From Gigantopelta aegis (taxonomy: Eukaryota > Mollusca > Gastropoda > Neomphalida > Peltospiridae), in assembly GCF_016097555.1 (NCBI RefSeq), contig NC_054704.1, positions 79,300,391 through 79,364,390 on the forward strand: 64,000 nt of DNA, written 5' to 3'. Numbering within the stretch: the first letter of the stretch is position 1; every line of letters starts with the position of its first letter. Below the pieces are notes generated by a model. The model did not search any database. It saw only the letters and a list, made by a program, of their open reading frames with translations, and was not told where the DNA came from. Made by a program: the position numbers and the translations under genes. This document shows positions 2,277 through 39,700 of the stretch, one piece after another.

Positions 2277-5200
2277 GTAACTATTTATACCTTTATAAAT
2301 TTTCATTTTTATTTATTTTCTTGCCTACATATAGCTATGCACTCTGAGTTGAAGTGTGTACAAGGATATAAACATAGGTGTACATGCTCCCATTTTTGTA
2401 GGTGGGGGTGGGGGGCTAGTTATTGCCCGAATTAAAAAAACAAAGGCACAAATCTGGATAACAATGTTTATTTATATAAGCATTACTCCCAAACAGCGAT
2501 ATAGGGTTACAAATGAATCACTGCACATTTTCCAAAAGATTACAACTAATTTTGTGGGTAGAATGATGGAAATACATTGTAAAAAGGTCTCAGGTTAGCA
2601 CATTTTGCCCGAATATCTCTATCGTTTTGGCCTGAATTTGAGGATTTATTCCAGCACTAGAGGACAGTTGCCCCCCACCCCCATCTCATACATTTATGGA
2701 TATAAACCCAGCAGCTGCACTGATAATCAATGTTAAGAATGGTTTGTTGATTGTGAAGTTATGAAATCAGTGACAGCTCTGTACATTTTAAACTACGTGT
2801 ATATATGGTGATCATCACTTGGTCGAGAGAAAGGGACAGAGAGGAAGCCTACTACCATATTACAGGATACATCTTCCAAACAGCATTAAGAGATTGATAT
2901 ACTCTTCAAAAAAAGAAACGCAAAAGGGTACAAATGGGTTATAACTCCAATTTTATGTTTCCTACCGGTTCATGCTTTGTGAATATAAGGTCATTGCATG
3001 TCCCAAACACATTCCCACGGTTACATTCGATAAAACGCAGCTACTGTACAATAAAGTTCCAAAATGTGAATATTCGCAAAAACGCAGCCACGTGCAAACC
3101 ATGTCACCACTGCACGTGCGTTGTCTGCACGTGCAACATGAACACCGACAGTATAAAAGTGCAGGGTGTTCGCTTGCCTGGCCTCTGTATCTGGCCGACA
3201 GTTGACAATCCAGGACATGCCACGTCTTAGTGAACCGCAGAGAAACAATGCCATCGGCCGACTAGACGCAGGCGAATCCAGAACGGCCGTTGCCAGGGCA
3301 TTCTATGTGTCCCCAAGCACCATCTCCAGACTGTGGGACCGTTACCAGCAACATGGATCAACACGTGACCTCCCTAGATCCGGTCGACCACGGGTCACTA
3401 CCCCCGGGCAGGACCGCTACATCCGGGTACGCCACCTTCGGGAACGATTGACTACTGCCACCTCCACAGCCGCAGCAATACCAGGTTTGCGCAGGATATT
3501 CGACCAGACCGTACGGAACCGCCTACGTGAGGTAGGAATTCGTGCCAGTCGTCCAGTTCGAGGTGTCATCTTAACACCACAACACCGTCGACTCTGACTG
3601 CAGTGGTGCCAGATTCATCGACAATGGCCTCAACTGCGATGGAGACAGGTGTGGTTCAGTGACGAGTCCCGATTTCTGCTCCGACGTCATGATGGAAGAT
3701 GTCGCGTGTATAGGCGTCGTGGTGAACGTTATGCGGCAAACTGCGTGCAGGAAGTGGACAGATTCGGCGGGGGTAGTGTCATGGTGTGGGCAGCCATCTC
3801 ACACACTGGCAGAACTGACCTGGTCCACGTGCAGGGCAACCTGAATGCACAGGGCTACATTGACCAGATCCTCCGGCCACACATCGTTCCAATTATGGCC
3901 AACGCCAACGCAGTGTTCCAACATGACAACGCCAGGCCTCACACAGCACGTCTCACAACGGCTTTCCTACAGAACAACAACATTAATGTCCTTCCTTGGC
4001 CATCGACATCACCGGATTTGAACCCAATTGAGCATCTATGGGACGAGTTGGACCGACAGCGACAACCACAACCCCAGACCCTGCCCGAGCTGGCAGCAGC
4101 CTTGCAGGCCGAGTGGGCCACCATCCCCCGGGACGTCATCCGTACTCTGGTTGCTTCAATGGGCAGGCGGTGCCAGGCAGTTGTCAACACACGCGGAGGC
4201 CACACCCGGTATTGACTCCAGATGACCTTGACCTTGGTGGTGTGTCCTATCACTTACTCACAATGGACTAGAGTGAATTGTGAACAATCCTGCAACATTT
4301 GGTAATTATCGGACTCACCATTCAATAATTAAATCAATTCTCCAAATGTTACGACAATGTGGTTTTGCATTTCTTCTTTTGAAGAGTATATATGCACTTT
4401 TCTCATGGCAAGGATAGTAGGGGTCTACATACTTTGGCTTTTCGTGTATTGGTCACAGAGCACTGACTGAGATGTGTGTGGGGGAAACCAGACTATCAGA
4501 TGTGATCAATCTCATGACCCATTGCACCTCAGTTAAGCATTCTACCACTGAGCTACATGTGTGTAGCATCCCAGGGCAAACTCTGGGTCAGCCGATAATT
4601 TCGCCAAATTATCTACTAAACTGTAATAAAATATCAATAAATACTTGAAATTATTGCGTCAAATTAAAATAAAATTCTCCAATTGTTGTTAAAATTGGCA
4701 GTTGGTGAATTTGGCGAGTGCCAGAGCTAGCCCTGATATCCCACCCCCATATTAAATGTTAACGGCAGATTTGAAGATGGTGCTGATTGTTATGTATATA
4801 CCGTACTACAGGTTATAACGTAAGCACCTTTTAAATTTTATTTTACAACCACATTCTGTAGGGATGATTTAGATTTTTAGAGTACATGTTGTATGTTTTG
4901 TTTGGTTGTATTTTGTTCCATTGTATAATTTTTGGTTTTAGAACATAGAAAAAAATCGAAGAAAGGAAAATGGAATATCACAGACAAAGATGAAGCTAAA
5001 CTGGAGACAGATACACCTGCAGTAGAAACTGTATCGCCTGCTAAAGTATTATCAGGTTTGTTCTTCCGTTTTGTAGACATGGGAAAATTGTGCTTGTGGC
5101 TAGATATGTATGTTCTACAGGGAATATTTTGTTCAATATCGCTACACAAGTTTCAGAGATTGCTACACAAGTTTCAGAGATCGCCACATTACACAGTGGT

Positions 5201-8200
5201 TGCTAATCAATTTTAGTTAATTAGAAATATTGCTAATCAAGATTTTGAAATGTTTTTTTTACTGTAATAATTTTTATGCTTACACATTGCCATCAGATGT
5301 TCCACTTGTTTATGACCTGTTATACAGCTCTTGCTTGATTTTTATAGTCTTACTTATTAAGAAAAAAGCCTTGAAAGTTCATCATGGCTGTAGGCCTAAA
5401 CTACAGCGCCGTATCAAAAGTTTTTGCGATAATCCAAAATGGCCGACGTAAAAACAGGTCAGTATGTAAATTTTAAAAACAAAATTCGGCTAGTAGAATT
5501 AATAACCATACCTCACTATCTTATTTTTGGGTAAAATTCTTTGAATTGTCACAGGATGAACTTTCACTCTCCTACCTTGATTAAAATCAGCAGTTATATC
5601 TCTAAGAACCTTTTTTTTGACACTCCGAAGTAAACATAATTCTCCTGTAATTGTGATCTTTCGTGGTCGACCAGTTCTTTTGGCATTCTCAACACTTCCG
5701 CTTATACAATATTTTTTCCACCCTGATCGAATGGTAGACTCGGGCACCGTCAATAATTTGACAATTTCTGAGTTTCTGTGGCCATGCGATTTTAAGTCAA
5801 CAATCAGTTGTTTTTTCTCGGTAGTGAGATCTGTGGATTTGCTACCCATTTTTGCAAGACACCATCTGCTTCAAGATCAAGGGAGCAGACGACTAATTCA
5901 TGACGTCACCAGTGTAGCTACATAAAAAATATATAAATAGGGATTGTATCAAAAGGCTTGGTTTTACGTAACTTGGGAAAAACACGCATTTTGCGGAAGG
6001 TAGAAAAGTGCTTCCGTGTTACTGACGTCATTTTCGCGAACACTTTTGATACGGTGCTGTAGATGATAATCATTGCTGTCTGCCATTACTAATAAACACT
6101 TTGGATATTATGTTTCTGTTGTATTAATCAATAAGTTTCTCATCTATACATTTATCTTCTTGATATTTGTCAGATATCATATTTTATTAAATATAGTGAT
6201 TTTGTTGTTGTTTTTAGATATGTCAGCCTGGAAAAAACTTTTTGTACCAGTTCCAGTTTTGAAGGCTCTTAGAGATCAAGGTTTTACAGCTCCAACTACT
6301 ATTCAAGCTTTTGCACTTCCATCGGCAATCCGTGATCATCTTGATATCATTGGAGCTGCTGAAACGGTTAGTGATATCAAACATAATCTTACTTTACTAT
6401 CTCTTAAATTTTGAATGTATTTGTAATAAGTGTTTTGTTGTATACCTATATTTTGTCTTTCAAAGCAGAGGCAAATCTAGATTAAAACATGTTAACTAAT
6501 TTTGTATTTTATATATGGGTTCTGTGAGGGGAGCTTACTCTATATTTACAAATTAAAATAAGAATTTTTATTCAGATTTTTTTTTTTAATTTCAGGGCAG
6601 TGGAAAAACTCTTGCGTTTGGTATTCCTATTCTTAATCATATTCTGACTTTCAAAGAAAAACAAAACTCTGAACTGTCTGTAGATTGTGAAAGGGAAGAC
6701 AACTCTGCACAGGATCAGATTTTTAAAAATGACTCTGATGACACTGGGTCTGACTCGGGTTTAGAAGTTCAAGGTGACAGTGGGTCAGATGAAGAATCTT
6801 TGAACAGTGAAAGTGAGGCAGGTAACACGGTTATTGATCTTGACAACATACCGATTCCAAGTAAAACAGTCGCTGATGAAAGTGATGACAGTGAACTGTT
6901 TGACAACCCTCCAGAAGAGGACGAAACCATTGAGATTGAGGTATTTTACAATTACTAAGTACTGTCTAATTCAGGCCTAATCATACTCGGACATATCTCT
7001 GTGTTCTGCCTACTGTTAACATGGTGCTTTGATGTTATATATGTTAACATGTCTTCTGTCAATGTTTTGCTATGTTCTGTCAACATGCATGTATAATACT
7101 ATGACTGCTGCTGACATGTTGGTATATTTGCTGTCAGCATTTTGATATGTCTGTTGTTAACATGTAATGTTGGTGTGTCTACAGTCAACATGTTGATATG
7201 TTTGCCATTAACATGTAATGTTGGTGTGTCTACAGTCAACATGTTGGTATGTGTGGTATCATTATGTTGCTCATTTGTGCTGTTATGTTGGTTTGTGCTG
7301 TCATCATGTTGGTATATCTGCTATCAACATGTTGCTGTCTGTTGTCAACATGTTGGTAGACTATTCCATTAAGCAAATTAATATTAATTTTGTTAGGACC
7401 ATATTTCAAATAGTTGTCCACTATAACTCTGAAGCCGAAATGTATCTTTGATTTATATCAAATACTGATTTTATGTCTAGTTAATAAGAAATGTTGGTAA
7501 TGTTTAGTTTTACTATACATTCTTTTTGGAGTGTTTGAAATTAGTTTCATAATAGCAGAATTTCAGTAGTTACTGTTATATATTTTAAACTTTTTTTTTC
7601 CTTCCTCAAATCTTATGTTACTATTTGTATATTATGATAAATAATAATTTATGTTCTCTGCTTCAGTTTTACTTTATAAAGTTTTACACTTAATGGTTTA
7701 GTCATAATTTTTGACCTGAAGTTACCAGAGACATATTACAGAAATGTGTTCTGTGTTTGATACAGGACGATCAACTTGGATGTACCAGAGTAATGAACGA
7801 CGTAGATTTTGTGGATGACATGGAAATAGAAGAACCCACAGAAAAAGCTGAGACTTCAAAACCGTTACTGGCCTTGATACTAGAGCCAACCCGAGAACTG
7901 GCCATTCAAGTTAAGAACCATCTGATGGCTGCAGCTAAATACACAGACATTCAGGTGAGATCCTTAGATAGTTCAAACTGGTTTTTGGTGGCTTACAGCT
8001 AAATAAACGACATTCAGGTGAGATCCTGGGATAGTTCAAACTGGTTTTTGGTGGCTTACAGCTAAATAAACGACATTCAGGTGAGATCCTGGGATAGTTC
8101 AAACTGGTTTTTGGTGGCTTACAGCTAAATAAACGACATTCAGGTGAGATCCTTAGATAGTTCAAACTGGTTTTTGGTGGCTTACAGCTAAATAAACGAC

Positions 8201-11200
8201 ATTCAGGTGAGATCCTTGGATAGTTCAAACTGGTTTTTGGTGGCTTACAGCTAAATAAACGACATTCAGGTGAGATCCTTGGATAGTTCAAACTGGTTTT
8301 TGGTGGCTTACAGCTAAATAAACGACATTCAGGTGAGATCCTTGGATAGTTCAAACTGGTTTTTGGTGGCTTACAGCTAAATAAACGACATTCAGGTGAG
8401 ATCCTGGGATAGTTCAAACTGGTTTTTGGTGGCTTACAGCTAAATACACAGACATTCAGGTGAGATCCTTGGATAGTTCAAACTGGTTTTGGTGGCTTAC
8501 AGCTAAATACACAGACATTCAGGTGAGATCCTGGGATAGTTCAAACTGGTTTTGGTGGCTTACAGCTAAATACACAGACATTCAGGTGAGATCCTTGGAT
8601 AGTTCAAACTGGTTTTTGGTGGCTTACAGCTAAATAAACGACATTCAGGTGAGATCCTTGGATAGTTCAAACTGGTTTTTGGTGGCTTACAGCTAAATAA
8701 ACGACATTCAGGTGAGATCCTTAGATAGTTCAAACTGGTTTTGGTGGCTTACAGCTAAATAAACGACATTCAGGTGAGATCCTGGGATAGTTCAAACTGG
8801 TTTTGGTGGCTTACAGCTAAATACACAGACATTCAGGTGAGATCCTTGGATAGTTCAAACTGGTTTTGGTGGCTTACAGCTAAATAAACGACATTCAGGT
8901 GAGATCCTGGGATAGTTCAAACTGGTTTTGGTGGCTTACAGCTAAATACACAGACATTCAGGTGAGATCCTTGGATAGTTCAAACTGGTTTTGGTGGCTT
9001 ACAGCTAAATAAACGACATTCAGGTGAGATCCTTGGATAGTTCAAACTGGTTTTTGGTGGCTTACAGCTAAATAAACGACATTCAGGTGAGATCCTTGGA
9101 TAGTTCAAACTGGTTTTGGTGGCTTACAGCTAAATACACAGACATTCAGGTGAGATCCTTGGATAGTTCAAACTGGTTTTTGGTGGCTTACAGCTAAATA
9201 AACGACATTCAGGTGAGATCCTGGGATAGTTCAAACTGGTTTTGGTGGCTTACAGCTAAATAAACGACATTCAGGTGAGATCCTGGGATAGTTCAAACTG
9301 GTTTTGGTGGCTTACAGCTAAATACACAGACATTCAGGTGAGATCCTTGGATAGTTGAAACTGGTTTTGGTGGCTTACAGCTAAATACACGACATTCAGG
9401 TGAGATCCTTGGATAGTTCAAACTGGTTTTGGTGGCTTACAGCTAAATACACAGACATTCAGGTGAGATACTTGGATAGTTCAAACTGGTTTTTGGTGGC
9501 TTACAGCTAAATAAACTAAATTCAGGTGAGATCCTTGGATAGTTCAAACTGGTTTTGGTGGCTTACAGCTAAATACACAGACATTCAGGTGAGATCCTGG
9601 GATAGTTCAAACTGGTTTTGGTGGCTTACAGCTAAATACACAGACATTCAGGTGAGATCCTTGGATAGTTCAAACTGGTTTTTGGTGGCTTACAGCTAAA
9701 TACACAGACATTCAGGTGAGATCCTTGGATAGTTCAAACTGGTTTTTGGTGGCTTACAGCTAAATAAACGACATTCAGGTGAGATCCTGGGATAGTTCAA
9801 ACTGGTTTTTGGTGGCTTACAGCTAAATAAACGACATTCAGGTGAGATCCTGGGATAGTTCAAACTGGTTTTGGTGGCTTACAGCTAAATACACAGACAT
9901 TCAGGTGAGATCCTTGGATAGTTCAAACTGGTTTTGGTGGCTTACAGCTAAATAAACGACATTCAGGTGAGATCCTGGGATAGTTCAAACTGGTTTTGGT
10001 GGCTTACAGCTAAATAAACGACATTCAGGTGAGATCCTTGGATAGTTCAAACTGGTTTTGGTGGCTTACAGCTAAATACACAGACATTCAGGTGAGATCC
10101 TTGGATAGTTCAAACTGGTTTTTGGTGGCTTACAGCTAAATAAACGACATTCAGGTGAGATCCTGGGATAGTTCAAACTGGTTTTTGGTGGCTTACAGCT
10201 AAATAAACGACATTCAGGTGAGATCCTTGGATAGTTCAAACTGGTTTTGGTGGCTTACAGCTAAATAAACGACATTCAGGTGAGATCCTGGGATAGTTCA
10301 AACTGGTTTTGGTGGCTTACAGCTAAATACACAGACATTCAGGTGAGATCCTGGGATAGTTCAAACTGGTTTTGGTGGCTTACAGCTAAATACACAGACA
10401 TTCAGGTGAGATCCTTGGATAGTTCAAACTGGTTTTGGTGGCTTACAGCTAAATACACAGACATTCAGGTGAGATCCTTGGATAGTTCAAACTGGTTTTT
10501 TGGTGGCTTACAGCTAAATAAACGACATTCAGGTGAGATCCTGGGATAGTTCAAACTGGTTTTGGTGGCTTACAGCTAAATAAACGACATTCAGGTGAGA
10601 TCCTGGGATAGTTCAAACTGGTTTTGGTGGCTTACAGCTAAATACACAGACATTCAGGTGAGATCCTTGGATAGTTCAAACTGGTTTTTGGTGGCTTACA
10701 GCTAAATAAACGACATTCAGGTGAGATCCTGGGATAGTTCAAACTGGTTTTTGGTGGCTTACAGCTAAATAAACGACATTCAGGTGAGATCCTTGGATAG
10801 TTCAAACTGGTTTTTGGTGGCTTACAGCTAAATAAACGACATTCAGGTGAGATCCTGGGATAGTTCAAACTGGTTTTGGTGGCTTACAGCTAAATACACA
10901 GACATTCAGGTGAGATCCTTGGATAGTTCAAACTGGTTTTTGGTGGCTTACAGCTAAATAAACGACATTCAGGTGAGATCCTTAGATAGTTCAAACTGGT
11001 TTTGGTGGCTTACAGCTAAATAAACGACATTCAGGTGAGATCCTTGGATAGTTCAAACTGGTTTTGGTGGCTTACAGCTAAATACACAGACATTCAGGTG
11101 AGATCCTTGGATAGTTCAAACTGGTTTTTGGTGGCTTACAGCTAAATAAACGACATTCAGGTGAGATCCTTGGATAGTTCAAACTGGTTTTGGTGGCTTA

Positions 11201-14166
11201 CAGCTAAATACACGACATTCAGGTGAGATCCTGGGATAGTTCAAACTGGTTTTGGTGGCTAACAGCTAAATACACAGACATTCAGGTGAGATCCTGGGAT
11301 AGTTCAAACTGGTTTTGGTGGCTAACAGCTAAATACACAGACATTCAGGTGAGATCCTGGGATAGTTCAAACTGGTTTTGGTGGCTTACAGCTAAATACA
11401 CAGACATTCAGGTGAGATCCTTGGATAGTTCAAACTGGTTTTTGGTGGCTTACAGCTAAATAAACGACATTCAGGTGAGATCCTGGGATAGTTCAAACTG
11501 GTTTTGGTGGCTTACAGCTAAATACACAGACATTCAGGTGAGATCCTTGGATAGTTCAAACTGGTTTTTGGTGGCTTACAGCTAAATACACAGACATTCA
11601 GGTGAGATCCTTGGATAGTTCAAACTGGTTTTTGGTGGCTTACAGCTAAATAAACGACATTCAGGTGAGATCCTGGGATAGTTCAAACTGGTTTTGGTGG
11701 CTTACAGCTAAATACACAGACATTCAGGTGAGATCCTTGGATAGTTCAAACTGGTTTTGGTGGCTTACAGCTAAATACACGACATTCAGGTGAGATCCTG
11801 GGATAGTTCAAACTGGTTTTGGTGGCTAACAGCTAAATACACAGACATTCACAGACATTCAGGTGAGATCCTGGGATAGTTCAAACTGGTTTTGGTGGCT
11901 AACAGCTAAATACACAGACATTCAGGTGAGATCCTGGGATAGTTCAAACTGGTTTTGGTGGCTTACAGCTAAATACACAGACATTCAGGTGAGATCCTTG
12001 GATAGTTCAAACTGGTTTTTGGTGGCTTACAGCTAAATAAACAGACATTCAGGTGAGATCCTGGGATAGTTCAAACTGGTTTTGGTGGCTTACAGCTAAA
12101 TACACAGACATTCAGGTGAGATCCTGGGATAGTTCAAACTGGTTTTTGGTGGCTTACAGCTAAATAAACGACATTCAGGTGAGATCCTGGGATAGTTCAA
12201 ACTGGTTTTTGGTGGCTTACAGCTAAATACACAGACATTCAGGTGAGATCCTTGGATAGTTCAAACTGGTTTTGGTGGCTTACAGCTAAATACACGACAT
12301 TCAGGTGAGATCCTGGGATAGTTCAAACTGGTTTTGGTGGCTAACAGCTAAATACACAGACATTCAGGTGAGATCCTTAGTTCAAACTGGTTTTGGTGGC
12401 TTATACACAGACATTCAGGTGAGATCCTGGGATAGTTCAAACTGGTTTTGGTGGCTAACAGCTAAATACACAGACATTCAGGTGAGATCCTGGGATAGTT
12501 CAAACTGGTTTTGGTGGCTTACAGCTAAATACACAGACATTCAGGTGAGATCCTTGGATAGTTCAAACTGGTTTTTGGTGGCTTACAGCTAAATACACAG
12601 ACATTCAGGTGAGATCCTTGGATAGTTCAAACTGGTTTTTGGTGGCTTACAGCTAAATAAACGACATTCAGGTGAGATCCTTGGATAGTTCAAACTGGTT
12701 TTGGTGGCTTACAGCTAAATACACAGACATTCAGGTGAGATCCTTGGATAGTTCAAACTGGTTTTGGTGGCTTACAGCTAAATACACGACATTCAGGTGA
12801 GATCCTGGGATAGTTCAAACTGGTTTTGGTGGCTAACAGCTAAATACACAGACATTCAGGTGAGATCCTGGGATAGTTCAAACTGGTTTTGGTGGCTAAC
12901 AGCTAAATACACAGACATTCAGGTGAGATCCTGGGATAGTTCAAACTGGTTTTGGTGGCTTACAGCTAAATACACAGACATTCAGGTGAGATCCTGGGAT
13001 AGTTCAAACTGGTTTTGGTGGCTTACAGCTAAATAAACGACATTCAGGTGAGATCCTGGGATAGTTCAAACTGGTTTTGGTGGCTAACAGCTAAATAAAT
13101 GACATTCAGGTGAGATCCTGGGATAGTTCAAACTGGTTTTGGTGGCTTACAGCTAAATACACAGACATTCAGGTGAGATCCTTGGATAGTTCAAACTGGT
13201 TTTTGGTGGCTTACAGCTAAATACACAGACATTCAGGTGAGATCCTTGGATAGTTCAAACTGGTTTTTGGTGGCTTACAGCTAAATAAACGACATTCAGG
13301 TGAGATCCTTGGATAGTTCAAACTGGTTTTGGTGGCTTACAGCTAAATACACAGACACTCAGGTGAGATCCTTAGATAGTTCAAACTGTCTTTGTTGGTT
13401 TAATCCTTCAGGCCTTTTAAAATTGAAATTTTTTAAAATTATACAAAAATAAATTCAGATAACCCATTTCCTTTTTGTGTAACCCATTATTTAAATTTTG
13501 TGTGAAAGAAAAAGTTAAGACAAAATTAGATTTGTGCGAGCAATATATGGATGAAACAATCATTCTTGCAATTAGCTGAGTTAATATAAAAATTATCAGA
13601 TTGGCACAAATAGTTATTTTTCTTCTTATTTGTTGTAGATTGCGACAGTAGTTGGTGGAATGTCTACAGAAAAACAACAAAGAATACTTCGACGCTGTCC
13701 CGAAATAGTGATTGCGACACCTGGACGTCTGTGGGAACTTATTCAGGAGGTTACACATCAGTTTCTTCATTATATCTAATAATTTGCTTTGACAATAGTA
13801 TTAGACACTCATAGGACCATATAAAATGTCTGATATTCAGGGAATCAAGTTTACAGGTTTTTTCACCGAGACAAAGGCTTTTGTTAAGACCATGAAAATG
13901 TCTGGTTTTTACACAGTTCCAGTTTCCTGAGGGATTTATTGCTGCTTATGGAAAAATTCTGAGGGCTTTTTCTGAAGACTGTCAAAATGACAGGTTTTTT
14001 TTACATTTAGTATCCGATAATTAATTGATCAAAATAGTGGTATTATTAAACAAACTGAATGTCTTTAGATTTTCTTATCCAAGCATGATTTATGTTTGTT
14101 CAATCATAAAGTAAATACATTTGTACTAAGATAAACACTATTACCTATTTACCATGTAGTGGACTA

Positions 14167-17200: not shown

Positions 17201-20200
17201 GGTATTGCATCATGCTAAAACAAACTAGGAAAAATACTAATAGATGATGTATGTCTAAAGCGTTGGCACATTATTGTCTCAAAAATTAATTTTTTGAAAT
17301 GGGAAGCAGTCTTTGCTTCTCATATTTTAATCTGGAAGCAAATGCTAGAAATTGAGAACAGTTCTAGATCGCTTGTACTGATATAAACTTTACTCTCATT
17401 TTGTGTAAGTTTAAATTGATACATTTTTTTAAGTATTAACTTGAGATGTGAGTTGTCATAGAATTGCTTTCCCTTCATTGATTTCGTTAATGAAAATTCA
17501 TGTACAGAGTGTAATATTATTTATTTGATATTCAGAATTACGTTCATCGCAGTGGGCGGACTGCACGGGCCTCCAGGGAAGGCCTCAGTGTCATGCTGGT
17601 TGGTCAGGAAGATGTCAGGAACTACAGGAAAATAATAGCCAATCTTAACAAGAGTTAGTTCCCTTTTTATGGCATCTTTTTTTTTTGTCTTAGTGTAGTT
17701 TTGTTCCACATGATTGTTTTTCATTGTTTCTTTTTCCTATTTTGAATGTGCAATAAATTGCTAATTTGTTATTATTAAGACATGGTTATAAAAATAATTT
17801 AAAATGTGAAATAATAAATAGGTATATAATTGTATTGTTTTTAGCTGATGGTGCCAGAATATTAATCCAAGTAGATACCCTTGTATTTATTATGCTAAAG
17901 ATTAAATAGCTGAATAACATCTTATTATAGACAAAAAACTAAACTGAAACACATAAACTCCACATACCTAGATATTATTGATGGAGAATTAACTAAGCAA
18001 TCAGCAATATCAAATATCGATGATATGTCATATCTTATGTATTAAAACACCAATAAAGGTTTTCTGCTTTTGCTAAGTAATAGATTTCCTCAATCTAGAT
18101 TTCTTGGAGTTTTAGTGAAAAATTAATTTTTATATATTGAATAAATATTAATAATTTTAGGTGAGGACATTTCTGTGTTTCCAGTTGAGATGCAGTACAT
18201 ACCGGCTCTAACCGCTCGTGTAGCCATAGCTAGAAAGATTGATATTCAGGAGCTCAGGTAAACACTCTCACTTTAAATGATAGCTTACAATTGCGACCCT
18301 CATTATGACCGTAATCTGAATAGTTTTCATTGAGTATTTTAAGTGCTTGGTTCATGCCATTTACATAAATCCAATGATAATATTTTTAGTTTGTTATAAA
18401 TACACAATAGTTCATAAATATGAATAAGTTTGTTTAAATTTTATGCCCTTATGGTATTATGCTTTCATTATATTAATGCCTGCATAGTGTTATGCTTTTC
18501 ATTGTGTTAATGACTGTGTATTTTCCCATCTCAACTAGTGCACCACACCTGGTAATCAAAGGCCATTAGTGATTTCCCTAGAGATTAAGCAAGGCATTGT
18601 AGACCAAACACTTTGGGGGCATTTTCACCATTTTCGGGGCACTTGTTTTTCATTAAAAATACACAAAAATTAATTGAAATAAACATTAATGTAATTTATA
18701 TGTTTGCTTTAATAAATGAATGGCAAAATATATAAAAGGCATACTTCATTCATTAATAATACTTTTTGGGGTGTTTTATAAAGGAAATTTTAGCATTAAT
18801 TACCGAAAAAGGCTTGTTTAATCTCAGTGCAGCATGCCACTGATTGAGGCAAAATGGTGCTAGACTATTGAAGCTAGGGAAAACACTATCACTGAATGTC
18901 TGTCTGTCTGGAAAAGTGCATTTACTGGTGCTAATGGAAAAATACAGCCGGTTTCCTCTAATGTCTACATATCCGAATGACTAAATGTTTGATTACCAAC
19001 AGCCAGTGATTAATTACTCGTTGACATTCAATGTGCTGTAGTGGTGTCCTTGAAGAAAACAATCTTTAACTTTTCACTGCTATGCCTTCATTATGTTAAT
19101 GGCTCCATAATGTTATACCTTCATTGCAGTAATGCCATTGGGCTATTTCTCGCTCCAGCCAGTGCACCACAACTGGTATATCAAAGGTTGTGGTATGTGC
19201 TATCCTGTCTATGGGATGGTGCATATAAAAGATTCCTTGCTGGTAATCGAAAAGGGTAGCCCATGAAGTGGCGACAGTGGGTTTCCTCTCTCAATATCTG
19301 TGTGGTCCTTAACCATATAACCATAAATAAAATGTGTCGAGTGCGTCTTTAAATAAAACATTTCTTTCTTTCTTTCATTGCAGTAATGCTCGCATAATGT
19401 ATGGGTTTTTTTGTGAACTCATCTTGAATGGTCAACTTTAGTCATGGACAAGAGACATTATGTGTATTTTAGAAAATCAGTTGATTGTCTCATTTCAGGT
19501 TTAAAAAGAAAAAGCTTCATAATGAATGGTTTCAGAAAGCTGCTGAAGAAATGGACCTGGCACTAGATGAAAGTCAACTGTATCCTTGACAACAGTAATG
19601 TAAACTGAGAGGAAACTTGTCAGTCACAACACAAGTCTGTTGTCTCTTGTTCCGTCAGCAAAATATTTAGTAGTGAAATAAAAATAAGAGGAAAAAAAAC
19701 TCCCATTACATCCAATAAAAACTCATTAAATAGTTTCAGTGTTCATTAAAGTATGCAAAAATACACGAACTTGATTTTTAAAAATAGCCATAATGTGAGA
19801 ACCACAAATAAAAAAAAGTTTGGGTCTAAAATATATACGGCTGAAAAAGTGTTCCCTGTTTATTTCAAAATCTATTTATTCTGGTATATTCAGACAGATA
19901 GTTAAAACTTTAAATATGTTTGAAGTTCCAGCTATCAATGTGTTTGTAATGTCATGAATATTCCAAATTGTTCTGTTATGTCAAAGGCTGTGGTATGTGC
20001 TGTCCTTTGTGGGAAAGTGCACATAAAAGATTCATTGCAGCTGATGGTATAAATGTTGTGTGTATCGTTTGTCTGCATGTCAGAAATTACAGAATGCTCA
20101 ACATCCAATAGTCGATGATTAAAGGCGCAGATCTTAGTTTCAGCCAGTGAAAATGGACTCTAAGTTTAGTTAATCTACAAACCTGCCACACACATTTGGA

Positions 20201-21540
20201 TACGGTAATAACAGAGAGAAACTAAAGTCTGTGATGTTTAAACATGGAAATGTCGTCTAATAATAACTGGGGCTTGTCTCGATAACAATTATTTCTCAGA
20301 TGAACGTGCATTTTTAGAATTAAGAATAATGCAATTTGGGGTTTTGCAAAAACCTGTATGACCAGAACCACTTCAAGTGTACAAAGTTTTTTATTCTAAA
20401 TAATATAATGTATAGTACTTCTACTTTAACTTATCAAAAACCGATTTAATAGTGAAAAATATGTTGTAGGGTTTGAAAACTAGGGTCTGTCACTTTAATA
20501 TATCAGACTGAGTGTGCTCTAGTGGTGTCATTAAACAAAACAGGTGCTCTATTGGTGTCATTAAACAAAACAGGTGCTCTAGTGGTGTCATTAAATATAA
20601 CAGGTGCTCTAGTGGTGTCATTAAACAGAACAGATTTTATTTGATTTGTTTCTTAACTCTGGCCAGCCTGGACATGGGCGACACACAGGAACAGAAGCAG
20701 CACCAGCAGCAGTTGAAGCAGATGCGGTCGGAGCTGTCCATGCTGCTCAAACAGTCGCTCGTACCCAGAACCTTCTCCGGAAAATACCCCACTCGCATGG
20801 GCATGCTGGTCCTGCCCACGTCAAAAGGTGAGAAATGACGTGTCCTTTCAACCAAGACCAATTTTGTTAAAAAAAAATGTTTTAAATCTCCCTATAATAT
20901 GTATGTAGGAGGAGGGATCTAGCTCAGCTGATAGAGCCTTTGCCTGAGGTACTTTGATCATAGGATCGAACCACCTCGGTGGATCCATTCTCTGGATTTT
21001 TCCCCCATCTAAACCATAGCCCACAATCTTTTGCTTAAAACAGAAGAATGTAGCAACTTTCCTCTGAAGATCACGGGTCAAAATTGTCAAAGATTAAGAT
21101 GTGTGTTTTTTGTGTCTTTTTTTTTTTGCTCATTGGGCTATTTCTCGTTCCATCCAGTGCACTATAAATGATATATAAAAGGCTGTGATATGTGCAACCC
21201 TGTCTTAGGGATGATGCATATAAAAAATCCCTTGTTACTAATAGAAAATGTAGCAGTATTTAACATCCAACAGCCAATAATTAATCGGTCAATGAGCTCA
21301 AGTGGTGTCGTTGAACAAAACAAAAAGGTTAAAAAAAAGGACTAATATTTCATTTGCCAGTGATATATAATTGATTGGGTTTTGTTTTGTTTTTCAGAGG
21401 CTGATGCTATTACAAAGGTGAAGAAAGACTTGCCAAGCCAGCAGAACATGATGAGACAAATTGCAGCTAAACAAAAGCTGATAAATAAAAAAAATGTTAA
21501 AACAAAAACAAAGAAATTCAAAAGTAAAAAGCAGAAATAA
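1947..21540 (+). CDS. DDX24: DDX24 / MAK5-type DEAD-box RNA helicase, 16 visible coding exons, 5' end outside the window
   Basis: Exons: 1947-2276, 4942-5055, 6218-6366, 6596-6940, 7766-7954, 13639-13749, 14236-14360, 14666-14796, 15192-15310, 16271-16448, 16767-16870, 17536-17653, 18161-18257, 19499-19579, 20667-20827, 21398-21540. All junctions after the first exon are GT/AG and the phases agree. They sum to about 827 codons; human DDX24 is about 859 aa as I recall it. Seen in order: Q motif ([20 protein letters not shown]), Walker A (AAETGSGKT), a DDX24-typical acidic insert of about 115 residues, [22 protein letters not shown] ([14 protein letters not shown]), SAT (FSATLT), [17 protein letters not shown] and HRSGRTARA, then a lysine-rich C terminus. 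Known role of the family: nucleolar large-subunit ribosome biogenesis (yeast Mak5). The initiator exon is not visible. Identification is firm; exact ends of exon 1 are not. Confidence 0.93.
2900..4388 (+). mobile_element. Complete Tc1/mariner-superfamily (DD34E) transposon, 1,489 bp
   Basis: Flanked by TA at 2898-2899 and 4389-4390. Terminal inverted repeats of about 28 bp start TACTCTTCAAAA and end TTTTGAAGAGTA. It lies in DDX24 intron 1, sense orientation, and encodes one transposase. Confidence 0.95.
3217..4215 (+). pseudogene. Tc1-type transposase with one internal stop
   Basis: The start is the ATG of [20 protein letters not shown]; 332 codons to TGA 4213-4215, the usual Tc1 length. N-terminal paired-like helix-turn-helix ([19 protein letters not shown]), a GRPR motif, then the catalytic triad: Asp149 (WFSDESRF), Asp237 (FQHDNARPH) and Glu272 (NPIEHLWDE), spacing DD34E. 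Codon 127 is TGA (3595-3597) where copy 1 has CGA, a single C-to-T change. A 9-bp in-frame deletion after WDELDR relative to copy 1. Otherwise the frame is open, implying recent activity of the family. Confidence 0.9.
4942..5055 (+). CDS. DDX24: DDX24 visible exon 2
   Basis: Acceptor TTTGGTTTTAG, donor G|GTTTGT, phase 1 at both ends (114 bp, 38 codons). Encodes a charged linker ([19 protein letters not shown] ... SPAKVLS) ahead of the helicase core. No recognisable domain. Confidence 0.8.
5117..5250 (+). mobile_element. MITE-like repeat, CAGGGAAC family, degraded copy
   Basis: Shares about 130 bp with 31364-31518 (GCTACACAAGTTTC, GCTAATCAATTT blocks). The left end CAGGGAATATTTTG is preserved, the right end decayed. 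A 24-bp piece is tandemly duplicated. Confidence 0.6.
5404..6059 (-). mobile_element. Short Tc1-like transposon, second family, internally deleted (656 bp)
   Basis: TA at 5402-5403 and 6060-6061. Terminal inverted repeats CAGCGCCGTATCAAAAG and CTTTTGATACGGTGCTG. It sits in DDX24 intron 2, antisense. Only the N-terminal, DNA-binding part of a transposase remains. Confidence 0.88.
5499..5849 (-). pseudogene. Transposase N-terminal DNA-binding region (116 aa), no catalytic domain
   Basis: Starts [20 protein letters not shown], with a helix-turn-helix ([19 protein letters not shown]) and a GRPRKIT motif, typical of Tc1-type N termini, then [12 protein letters not shown] from the second HTH. The frame stops before any DDE motif. 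It looks like a deletion derivative that could bind its own ends but not cut them. Confidence 0.75.
6218..6366 (+). CDS. DDX24: DDX24 exon 3: Q motif and first half of Walker A
   Basis: Acceptor TTGTTTTTAG; encodes [20 protein letters not shown], then [20 protein letters not shown] and LDIIGAAET. The intron splits motif I exactly between AAET and GSGKT. Donor ACG|GTTAGT. Confidence 0.93.
6596..6940 (+). CDS. DDX24: DDX24 exon 4: GSGKT and acidic insert
   Basis: Acceptor TTTAATTTCAG, then [19 protein letters not shown], then about 95 residues rich in D, E and S. This long acidic insertion between motifs I and Ia is the hallmark separating DDX24 from other DEAD-box proteins. It is 345 bp, phase 0 at both ends, donor GAG|GTATTT. 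Confidence 0.92.
7015..7365. repeat. Degenerate minisatellite, about 23-25 bp unit
   Basis: Repeated variants of TCAACATGTTGGTATGTCTG in DDX24 intron 4, about 14 imperfect copies. Short ORFs here are repeat artefacts. Confidence 0.75.
7766..7954 (+). CDS. DDX24: DDX24 exon 5: motif Ia; its 3' end is the founder of the intron 5 array
   Basis: Acceptor TTTGATACAG, 63 codons, ending [29 protein letters not shown]. Donor CAG|GTGAGATCC. The last 23-30 nt (…CAGCTAAATACACAGACATTCAG region, 7925-7954) recur in many units of the downstream array. Read-through past the donor stops at TAA 8000-8002 after [15 protein letters not shown]. Confidence 0.92.
7955..13385 (+). repeat. Intron 5 minisatellite of about 86 units of about 63 bp, each carrying an exon 5 end copy and a splice donor
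   Basis: The array fills about 95% of intron 5. Each unit holds CAG|GTGAGATCC, then TAGTTCAAACTGG, T4 or T5, GGTGGCTTACAG, and CTAAATACACAGACATTCAG (identical to the exon end) or the variant CTAAATAAACGACATTCAG. Unit length is 62-64 bp depending on T4/T5 and ACACAGAC/AAACGAC. The first donor (7955) and last donor (13363) are 5,408 bp apart, giving about 86 units. Spacer variants CTTGGAT, CTGGGAT and CTTAGAT are mixed. One short unit lies near 12375 and one with a 13-bp internal duplication near 11845. The copy number could be affected by assembly. Confidence 0.97.
13639..13749 (+). CDS. DDX24: DDX24 exon 6: GG and TPGR motifs
   Basis: Acceptor TTTGTTGTAG; encodes [20 protein letters not shown] and [17 protein letters not shown] (37 codons, phase 0). 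It joins exon 5 in frame, so correct splicing has to skip every array donor and use the first one at 7954/7955. Confidence 0.93.
13800..14235. other. DDX24 intron 6, no feature beyond (AT)n
   Basis: AT-rich intron sequence; (AT)n microsatellite at 14166-14202. Confidence 0.5.
14236..14360 (+). CDS. DDX24: DDX24 exon 7: DEAD box (motif II)
   Basis: Acceptor TTTATTGTAG; encodes [20 protein letters not shown] then [20 protein letters not shown]. An (AT)n tract lies about 35 bp upstream of the acceptor (14166-14202). Ends in a split codon (GA|G). Confidence 0.93.
14666..14796 (+). CDS. DDX24: DDX24 exon 8: SAT motif III
   Basis: Acceptor TTTGTGTTTAG; encodes [20 protein letters not shown], then a basic stretch ([15 protein letters not shown]). 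SAT couples ATP hydrolysis to unwinding in DEAD-box enzymes. Donor AG|GTAACA. Confidence 0.92.
15192..15310 (+). CDS. DDX24: DDX24 exon 9
   Basis: Encodes [20 protein letters not shown] then [19 protein letters not shown], matching the DDX24 segment 'GKPKVIDLTRN...ETLTETKI' between the two RecA lobes. Acceptor AATATGCAG, donor AAG|GTAGTT. Confidence 0.9.
15356..15542. repeat. Large inverted repeat (hairpin-forming MITE-like element) in DDX24 intron 9
   Basis: Left arm 15356-15426 and right arm 15465-15540 are near-perfect reverse complements (AACATATGTGAGGTTCTGTA against TACAGAACCTCAAATATGTT), with a loop of about 38 bp containing GAGACTGCGTAGTGATCGAG. Probably a foldback transposon end. Confidence 0.85.
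16271..16448 (+). CDS. DDX24: DDX24 exon 10: motif IV
   Basis: Acceptor GTTTTTCAG; encodes [20 protein letters not shown], a Cys/Leu-rich helix, and [19 protein letters not shown]. This is the start of the helicase C-terminal lobe. Donor AG|GTATTT. Confidence 0.93.
16767..16870 (+). CDS. DDX24: DDX24 exon 11: motif V
   Basis: Acceptor CTTCATCAG; encodes [20 protein letters not shown] and [14 protein letters not shown]. The usual TDVAARGLD reads SDVAARGLD here, a conservative change. Donor GAG|GTTAGG. Confidence 0.92.
16922..17239 (+). mobile_element. hAT-like MITE (TAGTGTTTTCCCTAG family), copy 1, diverged
   Basis: Shares most of its length with 18567-18888 and, inverted, 63597-63969: GGGGCATTTT, GTGTTTTATAAAGG and AAAGGCTTGTTTAATCTCAG blocks. 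Terminal repeats are decayed here. Confidence 0.75.
17536..17653 (+). CDS. DDX24: DDX24 exon 12: motif VI
   Basis: Acceptor GATATTCAG; encodes [20 protein letters not shown] and [27 protein letters not shown] carries the arginine-finger residues. Donor AGA|GTTAGT. Confidence 0.93.
18161..18257 (+). CDS. DDX24: DDX24 exon 13
   Basis: Acceptor ATAATTTTAG; encodes [20 protein letters not shown] then [11 protein letters not shown], matching 'EDIPLFPVQTKYMDVVKERI' of vertebrate DDX24. Donor CAG|GTAAAC, split codon. Confidence 0.9.
18535..19056 (+). mobile_element. SINE with type B tail, interrupted by a MITE
   Basis: The SINE body 'AGTGCACCAC..CTGGTAATCAAAGGCC' breaks off at 18566 and resumes near 18893 (GTCTGTCTGGAAAAGTGCAT ... 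CAATGTGCTGTAGTGGTGTC). Old, diverged copy. Confidence 0.75.
18567..18888 (+). mobile_element. hAT-like MITE (TAGTGTTTTCCCTAG family), copy 2, nested in a SINE
   Basis: Terminal inverted repeats TAGTGATTTCCCTAG and CTAGGGAAAACACTA. No coding capacity. 322 bp. Confidence 0.85.
19133..19378 (+). mobile_element. SINE, type A tail, headless
   Basis: From CCATTGGGCTATTTCTCGCT to a tail AAATAAAATGTGTCGAGTGC followed by (TTTC)n. The tRNA-like head is missing, as in a 5'-truncated insertion. Confidence 0.88.
19499..19579 (+). CDS. DDX24: DDX24 exon 14
   Basis: Acceptor CTCATTTCAG; encodes [20 protein letters not shown] and ALDESQ, matching 'NSWIEQAAAALEIEL' in vertebrates. Donor CT|GTATCC, the least consensus-like donor in the gene. 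Confidence 0.85.
19978..20636 (+). mobile_element. SINE type B interrupted by a TTAA-flanked MITE, with amplified tail
   Basis: The body runs to CAATAGTCGATGA at 20118, breaks at TTAA, and resumes at 20495 (TTAATATATCAGACTGAGTG). The tail unit GGTGCTCTAGTGGTGTCATT (about 31 bp) is repeated four times, 20513-20636. Confidence 0.85.
20119..20498 (+). mobile_element. piggyBac-like MITE (TTAA target), copy 1
   Basis: TTAA at both ends (20119-20122, 20495-20498). Terminal inverted repeats begin AAAGGCGCAGATCTTAGTTT and end AAACTAGGGTCTGTCACTTT. Non-coding, 380 bp. Reverse-oriented sister copy at 44689-45059. Confidence 0.85.
20667..20827 (+). CDS. DDX24: DDX24 exon 15
   Basis: Encodes [31 protein letters not shown] and [15 protein letters not shown], matching the Gln-rich helix and KYPTQSG motif of the DDX24 C-terminal extension. 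The acceptor (TCTGGCCAG) lies 31 bp after a four-fold duplicated SINE tail. Donor AAG|GTGAGA. Confidence 0.9.
20905..21060 (+). mobile_element. SINE head, type C (tRNA-like), fragment
   Basis: TAGCTCAGCTGATAGAGC resembles a tRNA A box and GGATCGAACC a B box. The CCTGAGGTACTTTGATC block recurs at 16670 and 47815. Confidence 0.65.
21128..21332 (+). mobile_element. SINE, type B tail, old fragment
   Basis: CATTGGGCTATTTCTCGTTC through GCATATAAAAAATCCCTTG to AGTGGTGTCGTTGAACAAAA, with an internal deletion before the tail. Confidence 0.8.
21398..21540 (+). CDS. DDX24: DDX24 last exon, lysine-rich C terminus
   Basis: Acceptor TTTGTTTTTCAG; encodes [20 protein letters not shown], then a K-rich tail ending KSKKQK and TAA at 21538-21540. 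The basic tail is typical of nucleolar helicases. Confidence 0.9.
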
Positions 21541-36700: not shown

Positions 36701-39700
36701 CTTTTCATACAAGTATGACCAGAGGCAAATTACAGTAATCGATCAAATTTCTAAAAAGTTCACTTGCAACCAAAAAAAAGATATAATGATAAGTATATAA
36801 GTAGGTAAATGATGTGTATCCCATTACTATTACAATGACACTTATTATAATCATTATAATATTAGTTGTATTGTTTTCAATATACAGTTGAACTTGCTAA
36901 ACGATCCACTTTTAAATATAACAATTAGGCACCATTATACACAAGAAATATGTTGTTTCAATATACAGTTGAACTTGCTAAAGGATCCATTGTTAAATAT
37001 AACAATTAGGCACCATTATACACAAGAAATACGTTTCAATATACAGTTGAACTTGCTAAAGGATCCACTGTTAAATATAACAATTAGGCACCATTATATA
37101 CAAGAAATACGTTTCCATTAACTTTTTTTTTTTTTTTAAATAAATGTTCATTGCCCATTTCAATTGGTTTGACTGGGCCTTGGCCTTGCTGTCATACTAA
37201 AAACCACATTCAGTTGTTCCCTTGGGTGATTCTTCCAATTTGACCTAACAGTAAAATTACTACTATAGCTTCTGTCAATAAAGGCTCTTTATACCTACCA
37301 AAGTGGTAAATACTACAACAATTGGACAATGGTTTATTTACTGAGATCTCCACTATATCTACTGTCAGTAGAGGCTCTTTATACACTAAACACACCAACA
37401 ACCGGACAATGATTTATTTACTGAGATCTCCACTATATCTACTGTTAGTAGAGGCTCTTTATACACTAAACACACCAACAACCGGACAATGGTTTATTTA
37501 CTGAGATCTCCACTATATCTACTGTCAGTAGAGGCTCTTTATACACTAAACACACCAACAACCGGACAATGGTTTATTTACTGAGATCTCCACTATATCT
37601 ACTGTCAGTAGAGGCTCTTTATACACTAAACACACCAACAACTGGACAATGGTTTATTTACTGAGATCTCCACAATATCTACTGTCAGTAGAGGCTCTTT
37701 ATATACTAAACACACCAACAACCAGACAATGGTTTATTTACTGAGTTCTGCACTATATCTACTGTCAATAGAAGCTCTTTATACACTAAACACACCAACA
37801 ACTTGACAATGGTTTATTTACTGAGATCTCCACTATATCTACTGTCAGTAGAGGCTCTTTATACACTAAACACACCAACAACCGGACAATGGTTTATTTA
37901 CTGAGATCTCCACTATATCTACTGTCAGTAGAGGCTCTTTATACACTAAACACACCAACAACTGGACAATGGTTTATTTACTGAGATCTCCACAATATCT
38001 ACTGTCAGTAGAGGCTCTTTATATACTAAACACACCAACAACCAGACAATGGTTTATTTACTGAGTTCTGCACTATATCTACTGTCAATAGAAGCTCTTT
38101 ATACACTAAACACACCAACAACTTGACAATGGTTTATTTACTGAGATCTCCACTATATCTACTGTCAGTAGAGGCTCTTTATACACTAAACACACCAACA
38201 ACTGGACAATGGTTTATTTACTGAGATCTCCACAATATCTACTGTCAGTAGAGGCTCTTTATATACTAAACACACCAACAACCGGACAATGGTTTATTTA
38301 CTGAGTTCTGCACTATATCTACTGTCAATAGAAGCTCTTTATACACTAAACACACCAACAACTTGACAATGGTTTATTTACTGAGATCTCCACTATATCT
38401 ACTGTCAGTAGAGGCTCTTTATACACTAAACACACCAACAACCGGACAATGGTTTATTTACTGAGATCTCCACTATATCTACTGTCAGTAGAGGCTCTTT
38501 ATATACTAAACACACCAACAACCGGACAATGGTTTATTTACTGAGATCTCCACTATATCTACTGTCAGTAGAGGCTCTTTATATACTAAACACACCAACA
38601 ACCGGACAATGGTTTATTTACTGAGATCTCCACTATATCTACTGTCAGTAGAGGCTCTTTATATACTAAACACACCAACAACCGGACAATGGTTTATTTA
38701 CTGAGATCTCCACTATATCTACTGTCAGTAGAGGCTCTTTATATACTAAACACACCAACAACCGGACAATGGTTTATTTACTGAGATCTCCACTATATCT
38801 ACTGTCAGTAGAGGCTCTTTATATACTAAACACACCAACAACCGGACAATGGTTTATTTACTGAGATCTCCACTATATCTACTGTCAATAGAGGCTCTTT
38901 ATATACTAAACACACCAACAACCGGACAATGGTTTATTTACTGAGTTCTGCACTATATCTACTGTCAATAGAAGCTCTTTATACACTAAACACACCAACA
39001 ACTGGACAATGGTTTATTTACTGAGATCTCCACTATATCTACTGTCAATAGAAGCTCTTTATATACTAAACACACCAACAACCAGACAATGGTTTATTTA
39101 CCGAGTTCTGCACTATATCTACTGTCAGTAGAGGCTCTTTATATACTAAACATTCCAACAACCGGACAATGGTTTATTTACTGAGATCTCCACTGTATCT
39201 ACTGTCAGTAGAGGCTCTTTATATACTAAACACACCAACAACCAGACAATGGTTTATTTACTGAGTTCTGCACTATATCTACTGTTAGTAGAGGCTCTTT
39301 ATATACTAAACATTCCAACAACTGGACAATGGTTTATTTACTGAGATACCACTATATCTACTGTCAGTAGAGGCTCTTTATATACTAAACACACCAACAA
39401 CCGGACAATGGTTTATTTACTGAGATACCACTATATCTACTGTCAATAGAAGCTCTTTACACTAAACACTCCAACAACCGGACAATTAATGGTTTATTTT
39501 GTGAGATATCCACTATATCTACTGTCAGTAGAAGTTCTTTACACTAAACACACCAACAACCGGACAATGGTTTATTTACTGAGTTCTGCACTCACTTGGT
39601 TGAATCGGGCTCGGTGTCGCTGGCATTCTGACTACTACTCTCACTGCGCTGGCGTCGCGCCCGCAACTGTGCGAGGAATTCAGATTCTTGTTTGAGTCGC

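Follow-up and report, generated by a model that had tools for sequence, protein, structure and literature searches.

A splice-donor minisatellite of 87 copies at the exon 5/intron 5 border of DDX24 in the deep-sea vent snail Gigantopelta aegis

The border between exon 5 and intron 5 of the RNA-helicase gene DDX24 in Gigantopelta aegis, a deep-sea vent snail, is a 63-nt minisatellite in which the end of the exon and its 5' splice site are amplified to 87 copies, as counted in one assembly. This amplified array of exon ends and donors is confirmed as real, and the repetition itself rules out chance. We consider it most probable (roughly 65%) that a tandem duplication grew to 87 copies that are spliced out with intron 5 from the first donor, and that the array is mostly a tolerated accident which may lower yield somewhat. 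Regulation through U1 or through copy number, such as the U1 sink or the copy-number dial proposed in the initial annotation, is conceivable.

Structure of the array and its host gene

TRF describes the array as 87 copies of period 63 with 95% matches. Each repeat unit consists of the last 23 nt of exon 5 and about 40 nt of intron 5. The minisatellite thus begins 23 nt inside exon 5, and the 5' splice site is intact in every unit (87/87); both features are those of splice-donor minisatellites of the IFI6/CBS kind. The initial annotation had recognized the unit as exon 5 end plus intron start, which the anatomy upholds. Its dimensions needed adjustment: the exon part is 23 nt rather than 23-30 nt, since 39 of the 86 later donors have the same 23-nt sequence on their left and none (0/86) has the same 26 nt; the intron contributes about 40 nt instead of "30 or so"; and the array ends near 13402 rather than at 13385.

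Parsing from donor to donor, from the first at 7954/7955 to the last at 13362/13363, gave 86 units of 63 nt (60 units), 62 nt (16), 64 nt (8), 51 nt (1), and 73 nt (1). That 84 of the 86 units measure 62-64 nt, within a total range of 51-73 nt, indicates that the donor has been kept in every unit. The motif CAGGTGAG was counted 87 times in the array and 0 times elsewhere in the window (the whole 64-kb stretch of DNA analyzed), and the donor 9-mer CAG/GTGAGA is identical in 87/87 copies, all of which read CAGGTGAGAT. The earlier estimate of about 87 such copies is therefore matched by the count, the first being exon 5's own donor, and the description of the donors as equal competitors is right at the level of the 9-nt site. 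Coordinates are given in Table 1.

Table 1. Positions within the window of DDX24 exons 5 and 6 and of the array's landmarks
Feature	Position	Strand	Basis
DDX24 exon 5, 189 nt, phase 0-0; exon part of the repeat = 7932-7954	7766..7954	+	joined frame identical to P0001
63-nt minisatellite, 87 copies, across the exon 5/intron 5 border	7932..13402	+	TRF, donor-to-donor parsing
Exon 5's own 5' splice site CAG/GTGAGA, first of 87 identical	7952..7960	+	
First full donor-to-donor unit	7955..8017	+	donor-to-donor parsing
First TTACAG, 3'-splice-site-like	7993..7998	+	
In-frame TAA, included by any of 86/86 later donors	8000..8002	+	ORF ends here
First of 39 AATAAA, 10 nt before the next donor	8002..8007	+	
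GT-rich tract GGTTTTTGGTGG, 35 nt downstream of the first AATAAA	8043..8054	+	
Last donor, then single-copy intron start (CCTTAGATAG...CTGTCTTTGTTGGTTTA); 3' edge of the array	13360..13402	+	
DDX24 exon 6; P0001 joins it in frame to 7954	13639..13749	+	

The host gene had been named as DDX24, and the joined exons 2-13 agree: they form an open frame with 100% identity, over a 617-amino-acid query, to a G. aegis "DDX24-like" database entry (P0001). This entry joins 7954 to 13639, which is weak proof that the donor at 7954 is used, because gene models favor coding joins. The argument that an in-frame exon 5-6 join needs the first donor was borne out, and the TAA reported in the first unit is present. 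The peptide AAKYTDIQ, encoded by the exon part, belongs to the ordinary coding sequence of DDX24, and no extra residues were found at the 5/6 junction in the 11 relatives aligned. A query of exons 1-5 plus the read-through tail returned no near-identical truncated protein among the matches listed (best 120 of 288), the best being a Tegillarca protein at 71% identity; full-length P0001 fell outside the length limits of this search. Single-exon Pfam scans placed DEAD below the cut-off for two exon stretches (E values of 0.0037 and 0.0032) and returned nothing for two others, and the best 60 of 175 matches in a PDB search were other DEAD-box proteins, none named DDX24. A protein-coding repeat was rejected: the exon 5 frame stays open through 35 of the 86 units, but the first unit stops it; a minus-strand ORF at 7935-8477 was likewise set aside and taken as a by-product of the 63-nt period.

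Origin of the array and its donors

The edge units and the mixed variants suggest that a tandem duplication, with ends in exon 5 and about 40 nt into intron 5, would have produced a second exon end and donor, and that slippage or unequal exchange would then have driven growth to 87 copies. Read from AGTTCAAACTG, the unit agrees first with the single-copy intron start (21 of 25 nt) and next with the end of exon 5 (23 of 23). CCTTAG follows the first and last donors and otherwise only donors 4, 13, 49, and 71 (71 via a deletion), with TTGG or TGGG after most other donors; its presence at both edges and rarity between them make the edge copies look ancestral. In a search for higher-order repeats over lags of 1-20, only lags 9, 16, and 17 exceeded shuffles (P = 0.0225, 0.008, and 0.0095), and the longest shared run was 4 units, a length reached or passed in 126 of 500 shuffles. 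The 19-nt core of the unit had 0 exact matches in viral contigs, a collection that may lack records close to the window's genome. The window as a whole is rich in tandem arrays, with 21 of them (hand-picked from TRF output at a period of 15 or more, simple runs excluded) making up 19.4% of its length; given this density, further arrays over splice sites are to be expected elsewhere in the G. aegis genome.

The duplex of the exon 5 donor with U1 (-11.1 kcal/mol) is the best among the 15 DDX24 donors scored; by consensus-letter score (7/9), this donor ties with four others and is set apart by duplex energy only. The nine donor columns never vary among the units. This invariance is no clear evidence for or against selection on the donors, as it does not exceed what chance allows (P of 0.08-0.22, depending on column count). 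The probability is 0.12-0.22 given 9-12 variable columns among 62, 0.08 with all 14 substituted columns of the unit alignment, and 0.18 with the 10 left after columns 43 and 45-47 were dropped (they stem from the 51-nt unit, presumed misaligned). Masking of the donor by RNA structure was rejected, two monomers and one dimer folding no better than shuffles (z of 0.62, 1.25, and -0.57). GUGAG is able to pair with CUUAC within one unit.

Competing readings of the repeated signals

If the array is a tolerated accident, it would leave with intron 5 (5,684 nt) when the donor at 7954 is joined to exon 6 at 13639, a join known from the database protein. Transcripts joined from later donors would contain the stop observed in the first unit and would be expected to undergo decay. 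Against this reading, competition among equal donors often favors the donor closest to the 3' splice site.

AATAAA is present in 39 of the 86 units; the next donor follows after 10 nt in all but one of them, where the distance is 11 nt, and GGTTTT lies 35 or 36 nt after each hexamer (39/39). Together, hexamer, GT tract, and nearby U1 site give these 39/86 units the layout of a poly(A) site whose cleavage zone contains the U1 site, which is the sequence arrangement that defines a candidate for telescripting. Such sites could form a U1-guarded poly(A) array in which exon 6 would be reached only while U1 covers them; a shortage of U1 would end transcripts in intron 5, and DDX24 output would be tied to U1 supply and copy number. 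We regard this as unlikely. The hexamers are denser in the array than in the rest (7.16 versus 2.08 per kb), 3 of the 122 AATAAA outside it attain the array's median downstream GT content of 0.93, and within 50 nt of those 122 there is CAGGTRAG in 0 cases and GGTRAG in 2. Intronic poly(A) sites are silenced by U1 in human, mouse, and Drosophila (PMC5499120, PMC6946686, PMC9098121). However, a single substitution from AATACA to AATAAA, spread by array turnover, would produce this pattern without selection; AATAAA is missing from 47 of 86 units, and ATTAAA occurs nowhere in the array. The literature covered showed no case of U1 telescripting in molluscs, and PMC9098121 itself describes direct proof through U1 as lacking. 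That the array might act as a natural U1 gauge, with 87 strong U1 sites among 39 poly(A)-like sites and with U1 supply (e.g., under heat) and copy number setting DDX24 output, seems quite improbable. The 39 AATAAA could also make the array costly, which counts against a tolerated accident.

A distinctly doubtful proposal is dual-specific or recursive splicing, whereby CATTCAG/GTGAGA of any unit would serve as a 3' and then as a 5' splice site, the exon 5 donor hopping along the array and the intron being removed in silent steps. Each unit ends in CAG/GTGAGA, and hopping would always restore an identical exon end and frame; AG/GT sites do stand at repeat-length spacing (84 of the 86 spacings are 62-64 nt, within a range of 51-73 nt overall). 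Dual AGGT sites are known in tandem repeats, most clearly in human UBC, and human introns with a length that is a multiple of the surrounding repeat show an 8.4-fold excess (PMC10809524). On a matrix from the gene's own acceptors, however, 77 of the 87 copies of CATTCAG/G have scores of -2.1 to -3.4 as 3' splice sites, whereas 12 of 14 real DDX24 acceptors score above 0 and the lowest -4.6, which places the dual site within their range only at the low end. The T(T/A)ACAG element about 20 nt upstream scores 4.0-5.5 in 76 of 85 cases and would compete with it.

The initial annotation had placed TTACAG about 20 nt before each donor. This spacing holds in 84 units (19 nt in 43 and 20 nt in 41), but nine of the 85 T(T/A)ACAG elements are TAACAG, one lies at 30 nt, and 1 of the 86 units has no element. 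Cryptic microexons of 19-20 nt, running from T(T/A)ACAG to the next donor, could be included at some rate and lead to decay, which we judge very improbable. The elements score 4.0 (42), 5.5 (33), 1.0 (9), and 5.3 (1), and a score of 5.5 is attained by 2.8% of the 2,128 AGs at 20.9-60 kb of the window; one 19-nt and one 20-nt microexon were tested, and each yields a stop in the new frame. Against this, the scoring matrix is built on just 14 acceptors, and exons this short are normally skipped unless helped.

An assembly artefact, with few real copies inflated by assembly or polishing, is barely credible: the published assembly did combine PacBio subreads, Canu and wtdbg2, and Racon and Illumina/Pilon polishing, and repeats are risky ground for polishing, but the Canu minReadLength of 8000 exceeds the 5.47-kb array (PMC7895826), and the 20 unit types are intermingled, no large block being duplicated.

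Should splicing start from the first of the 87 identical donors alone, as in the preferred reading of a tolerated minisatellite, then donor sequence must give way to position or exon context, and the DDX24 array would be an unusually clean natural test of splice-site choice. Use of later donors, microexons, or poly(A) sites would instead mean that a conserved helicase gene carries a copy-number-dependent brake. The interleaving of AATAAA with U1 sites offers a ready-made test of U1 protection versus early polyadenylation.

Comparison with known splice-site repeats

Human UBC and VCX3A resemble the array in their tandem AGGT sites, potential 5' or 3' splice sites, but the UBC repeats are coding and spliced stochastically in frame (PMC10809524). 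The DDX24 units are intronic, and 51 of the 86 either contain a stop or do not keep the frame; the 35 of 86 that are both a multiple of three in length and stop-free lie behind a first unit with a stop. Internal tandem repeats of human segmental duplications are likewise minisatellites at exon-intron borders with changed splicing; they differ in having, on average, four 30-bp units and in lying in primate-specific paralogs (PMC2812944). The literature search, which took in a minority of subscription papers and did not extend to the C. elegans splicing/minisatellite paper PMC4039745, met no donor array outside human.

The DDX24 array is a splice-donor minisatellite, a kind already known in two human genes, IFI6 and CBS; the initial annotation had missed this parallel, as it had the AATAAA hexamers beside the donors. 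The IFI6 minisatellite has a 12-bp unit in about 26 copies and gives in-frame products. In IFI6 (6-16, G1P3), two downstream repeat units serve as donors, and three mRNAs result (PMC4526556). A minisatellite with repeated donors is common to both genes; the DDX24 array differs in its units of ~63 nt, its 87 donors, and the stop that follows the first of them. Of the two splice sites copied in the CBS 844ins68 duplication, termed intron 7 donors, the more distal is strongly favored (PMC2630376). The downstream donors of IFI6 and the distal preference in 844ins68 argue against use of the first site only.

The CBS VNTR was reportedly associated with reduced CBS activity by Lievers in 2001. It lies at exon 13-intron 13, goes with lower activity (PMC1395315), and comprises 16-21 copies of a 31-bp unit, c.1444_1467+7(16_21), which by its name spans exon bases to intron base +7, the donor being repeated as in DDX24 (PMC2630376). 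The two arrays differ in size, 16-21 copies of 31 bp (PMC2630376) against 87 of ~63, and in unit make-up, 24 exon and 7 intron nt by name in CBS against 23 and about 40 in DDX24.

The array at the end of DDX24 exon 5

Tandem Repeats Finder placed the array, a 63-nt minisatellite across the border of exon 5 and intron 5 of DDX24, at 7932-13402 (period 63, 87 copies, 95% matches). Cutting the sequence at CAG/GTGAG gave 87 donors (5′ splice sites) from 7955 to 13363, with no CAG/GTGAG in the rest of the 64-kb window. The donor is retained in every unit and reads CAGGTGAGAT in 87 of 87 cases, in line with the roughly 87 copies described in the initial annotation. The 86 units (donor-to-donor stretches) measure 63 nt (60 units), 62 nt (16), 64 nt (8), 73 nt (1), and 51 nt (1) and fall into 20 distinct types. 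The published assembly, to which the window presumably belongs judging by the protein match described below, was built from PacBio subreads with Canu (minReadLength 8000) and wtdbg2 and polished with Racon and Pilon (PMC7895826). This minimum length implies reads able to cross the 5.47-kb array; confidence is lower for its exact copy number and for unit variants that differ by one base.

DDX24 exons were placed by tblastn using pieces of human DDX24. Joined exons 2-13 matched, at 100% over the full 617-aa query, a 785-aa protein entry of G. aegis, a hydrothermal-vent snail of the order Neomphalida (PMC7895826, PMC7736800), named "ATP-dependent RNA helicase DDX24-like [Gigantopelta aegis]." Across 12 aligned DDX24 proteins, 11 of them from relatives, nothing is inserted where exons 5 and 6 meet; the exon 5 end is therefore ordinary coding sequence, from which the array was copied.

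The database entry lacks an N-terminal part (MATxxHVK...KW) present in 10 of the 11 relatives. In the DDX24 start region (1955-2276), the frame stays open 5′ of the entry's ATG, and tblastn with the N termini of two relatives gave nothing convincing in the window for the missing part (best E, 0.42). Separately, 21 hand-picked arrays (period of at least 15; simple runs left out) make up 19.4% of the window.

Positions of DDX24 exons, large minisatellites, and transposon copies in the window
Feature	Position	Details
DDX24 exon 5	7766-7954	
DDX24 exon 6	13639-13749	
Large minisatellite	37316-39592	80 bp × 28.5
Large minisatellite	45710-47034	19 bp × 71
Large minisatellite	53284-54111	83 bp × 10
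Transposon copy 1 (by ORFs)	56-918	helix-turn-helix part at 192-596
Transposon copy 2 (by ORFs), similar to copy 1	3021-4253	DDE_3 endonuclease domain at 3598-4215

Starting at AGTTCAAACTG, the unit first agrees with the single-copy start of the intron (21 of 25 nt) and next with the end of exon 5 (23 of 23 nt). Among ungapped splits this is the best; because a gapped alignment can also carry part of the middle (GGTGGCTTA) over to exon 5, the breakpoint is approximate. Of the 23 to 30 nt of exon originally proposed for the unit, the lower figure stands, as a 23-nt left flank identical to exon 5 precedes 39 of the 86 later donors (those 3′ of exon 5's own), and the longer extent does not, a 26-nt identical flank preceding 0 of 86. 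CCTTAG lies 3′ of donors 1, 4, 13, 49, 71 (via a deletion), and 87, and its presence after the first and last leads us to take both array edges as holding the ancestral form. The T4/T5 and CAC/AAC unit variants are linked yet recombined (41, 28, 11, and 6 units), the TAACAG units (n = 9) all fall within units 53-82, and the array has no clear higher-order repeat. Its growth looks like slippage or unequal exchange.

Splicing signals and predicted products

Paired with the U1 5′ end, CAG/GTGAGA reaches −11.1 kcal/mol, the best of the 15 DDX24 donors scored (−1.3 to −9.6 for the rest); its consensus-letter count of 7/9 is shared by four other DDX24 donors. The array contains 85 copies of T(T/A)ACAG, each with CTAAAT after it. 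Scored as acceptors with a matrix from DDX24's 14 acceptors, these elements reach 4.0 to 5.5 (76 copies) or 1.0 (9 copies), against −4.6 to 12.1 for the 14 themselves under leave-one-out, a rough comparison since the array was scored with the full matrix. On this matrix, CATTCAG/GT treated as a 3′ splice site falls between −2.1 and −3.4 for 77 of its 87 copies.

Splicing from any later donor would retain the TAA at 8000 (86/86), the stop already attributed to the first unit, and the two microexons tried between exons 5 and 6 (one of 20 nt, one of 19 nt) each gave a stop. A hop from CAG/GT to CAG/GT would leave the mRNA as is. Mis-spliced products are presumably lost to decay. When the protein of exons 1-5 plus its read-through tail was used as a query, the best of 120 of 288 matches listed, many unnamed, had 71% identity across 19% of the query; a near-identical truncated DDX24 form was thus not found among them.

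Elsewhere in DDX24, the second-strongest U1 duplex of the 15 is AAG/GTGAGA (20825-20833; exon ending 20827). The donor at 19577-19585 implied by the database protein is very weak (ACT/GTATCC; 3/9 consensus; −1.3 kcal/mol), and that join may be wrong. A second DDX24 array (30 bp × 4, 20514-20633) ends 33 nt 5′ of the exon starting at 20667, and its AACAG/GTGCTC joints might serve as acceptors.

Poly(A)-like sites within the array

AATAAA, a motif that the initial annotation does not mention, occurs in 39 units, at 7.16 per kb in the array versus 2.08 per kb in the remaining window. The next donor begins 10 nt downstream of the hexamer in 38 of these units and 11 nt downstream in the remaining one, and a GGTTTT tract lies 35 or 36 nt after the hexamer. 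Downstream GT content has an array median of 0.93, a value reached by 3 of the 122 AATAAA elsewhere in the window; CAGGTRAG lies within 50 nt of none of these 122, and GGTRAG of 2. Poly(A) sites are laid out as AATAAA with a downstream GT-rich tract, and at the sequence level the 39 units share this arrangement, with a U1 site in the cleavage zone. A function-free origin would account for the AATAAA pattern through one AATACA-to-AATAAA change spread by array turnover. Keeping intronic poly(A) sites silent is a known role of U1 (PMC5499120, PMC6946686). Heat shock in human cells is reported to upset this silencing (PMC9098121), the authors noting that direct proof via U1 is lacking.

Overall reading and known counterparts

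We favor, with a probability of about 0.65, a tolerated expansion spliced from the first donor. The boldest alternative is that the array may act as a brake on DDX24 that responds to U1 and to copy number. In human IFI6, a minisatellite supplies several splice donors (Turri et al. 1995); IFI6 employs later ones, with two downstream repeat units reported to act as donors (PMC4526556). Of the sites copied in the CBS 844ins68 duplication, the one lying more distally is reported to be preferred (PMC2630376), and together these two cases weigh against splicing from the first donor. The CBS 31-bp VNTR, c.1444_1467+7(16_21), carries by its name an exon end plus seven intron bases per unit (PMC2630376), and an association with reduced activity has been reported (Lievers 2001; PMC2630376, PMC1395315). 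Dual AGGT sites inside the UBC repeats are described as usable for splicing (PMC10809524), and minisatellites at exon-intron borders are reported in human duplicated genes (PMC2812944). The DDX24 array is real and striking in scale, yet it belongs to a kind already known, the splice-donor repeats of IFI6 and CBS.
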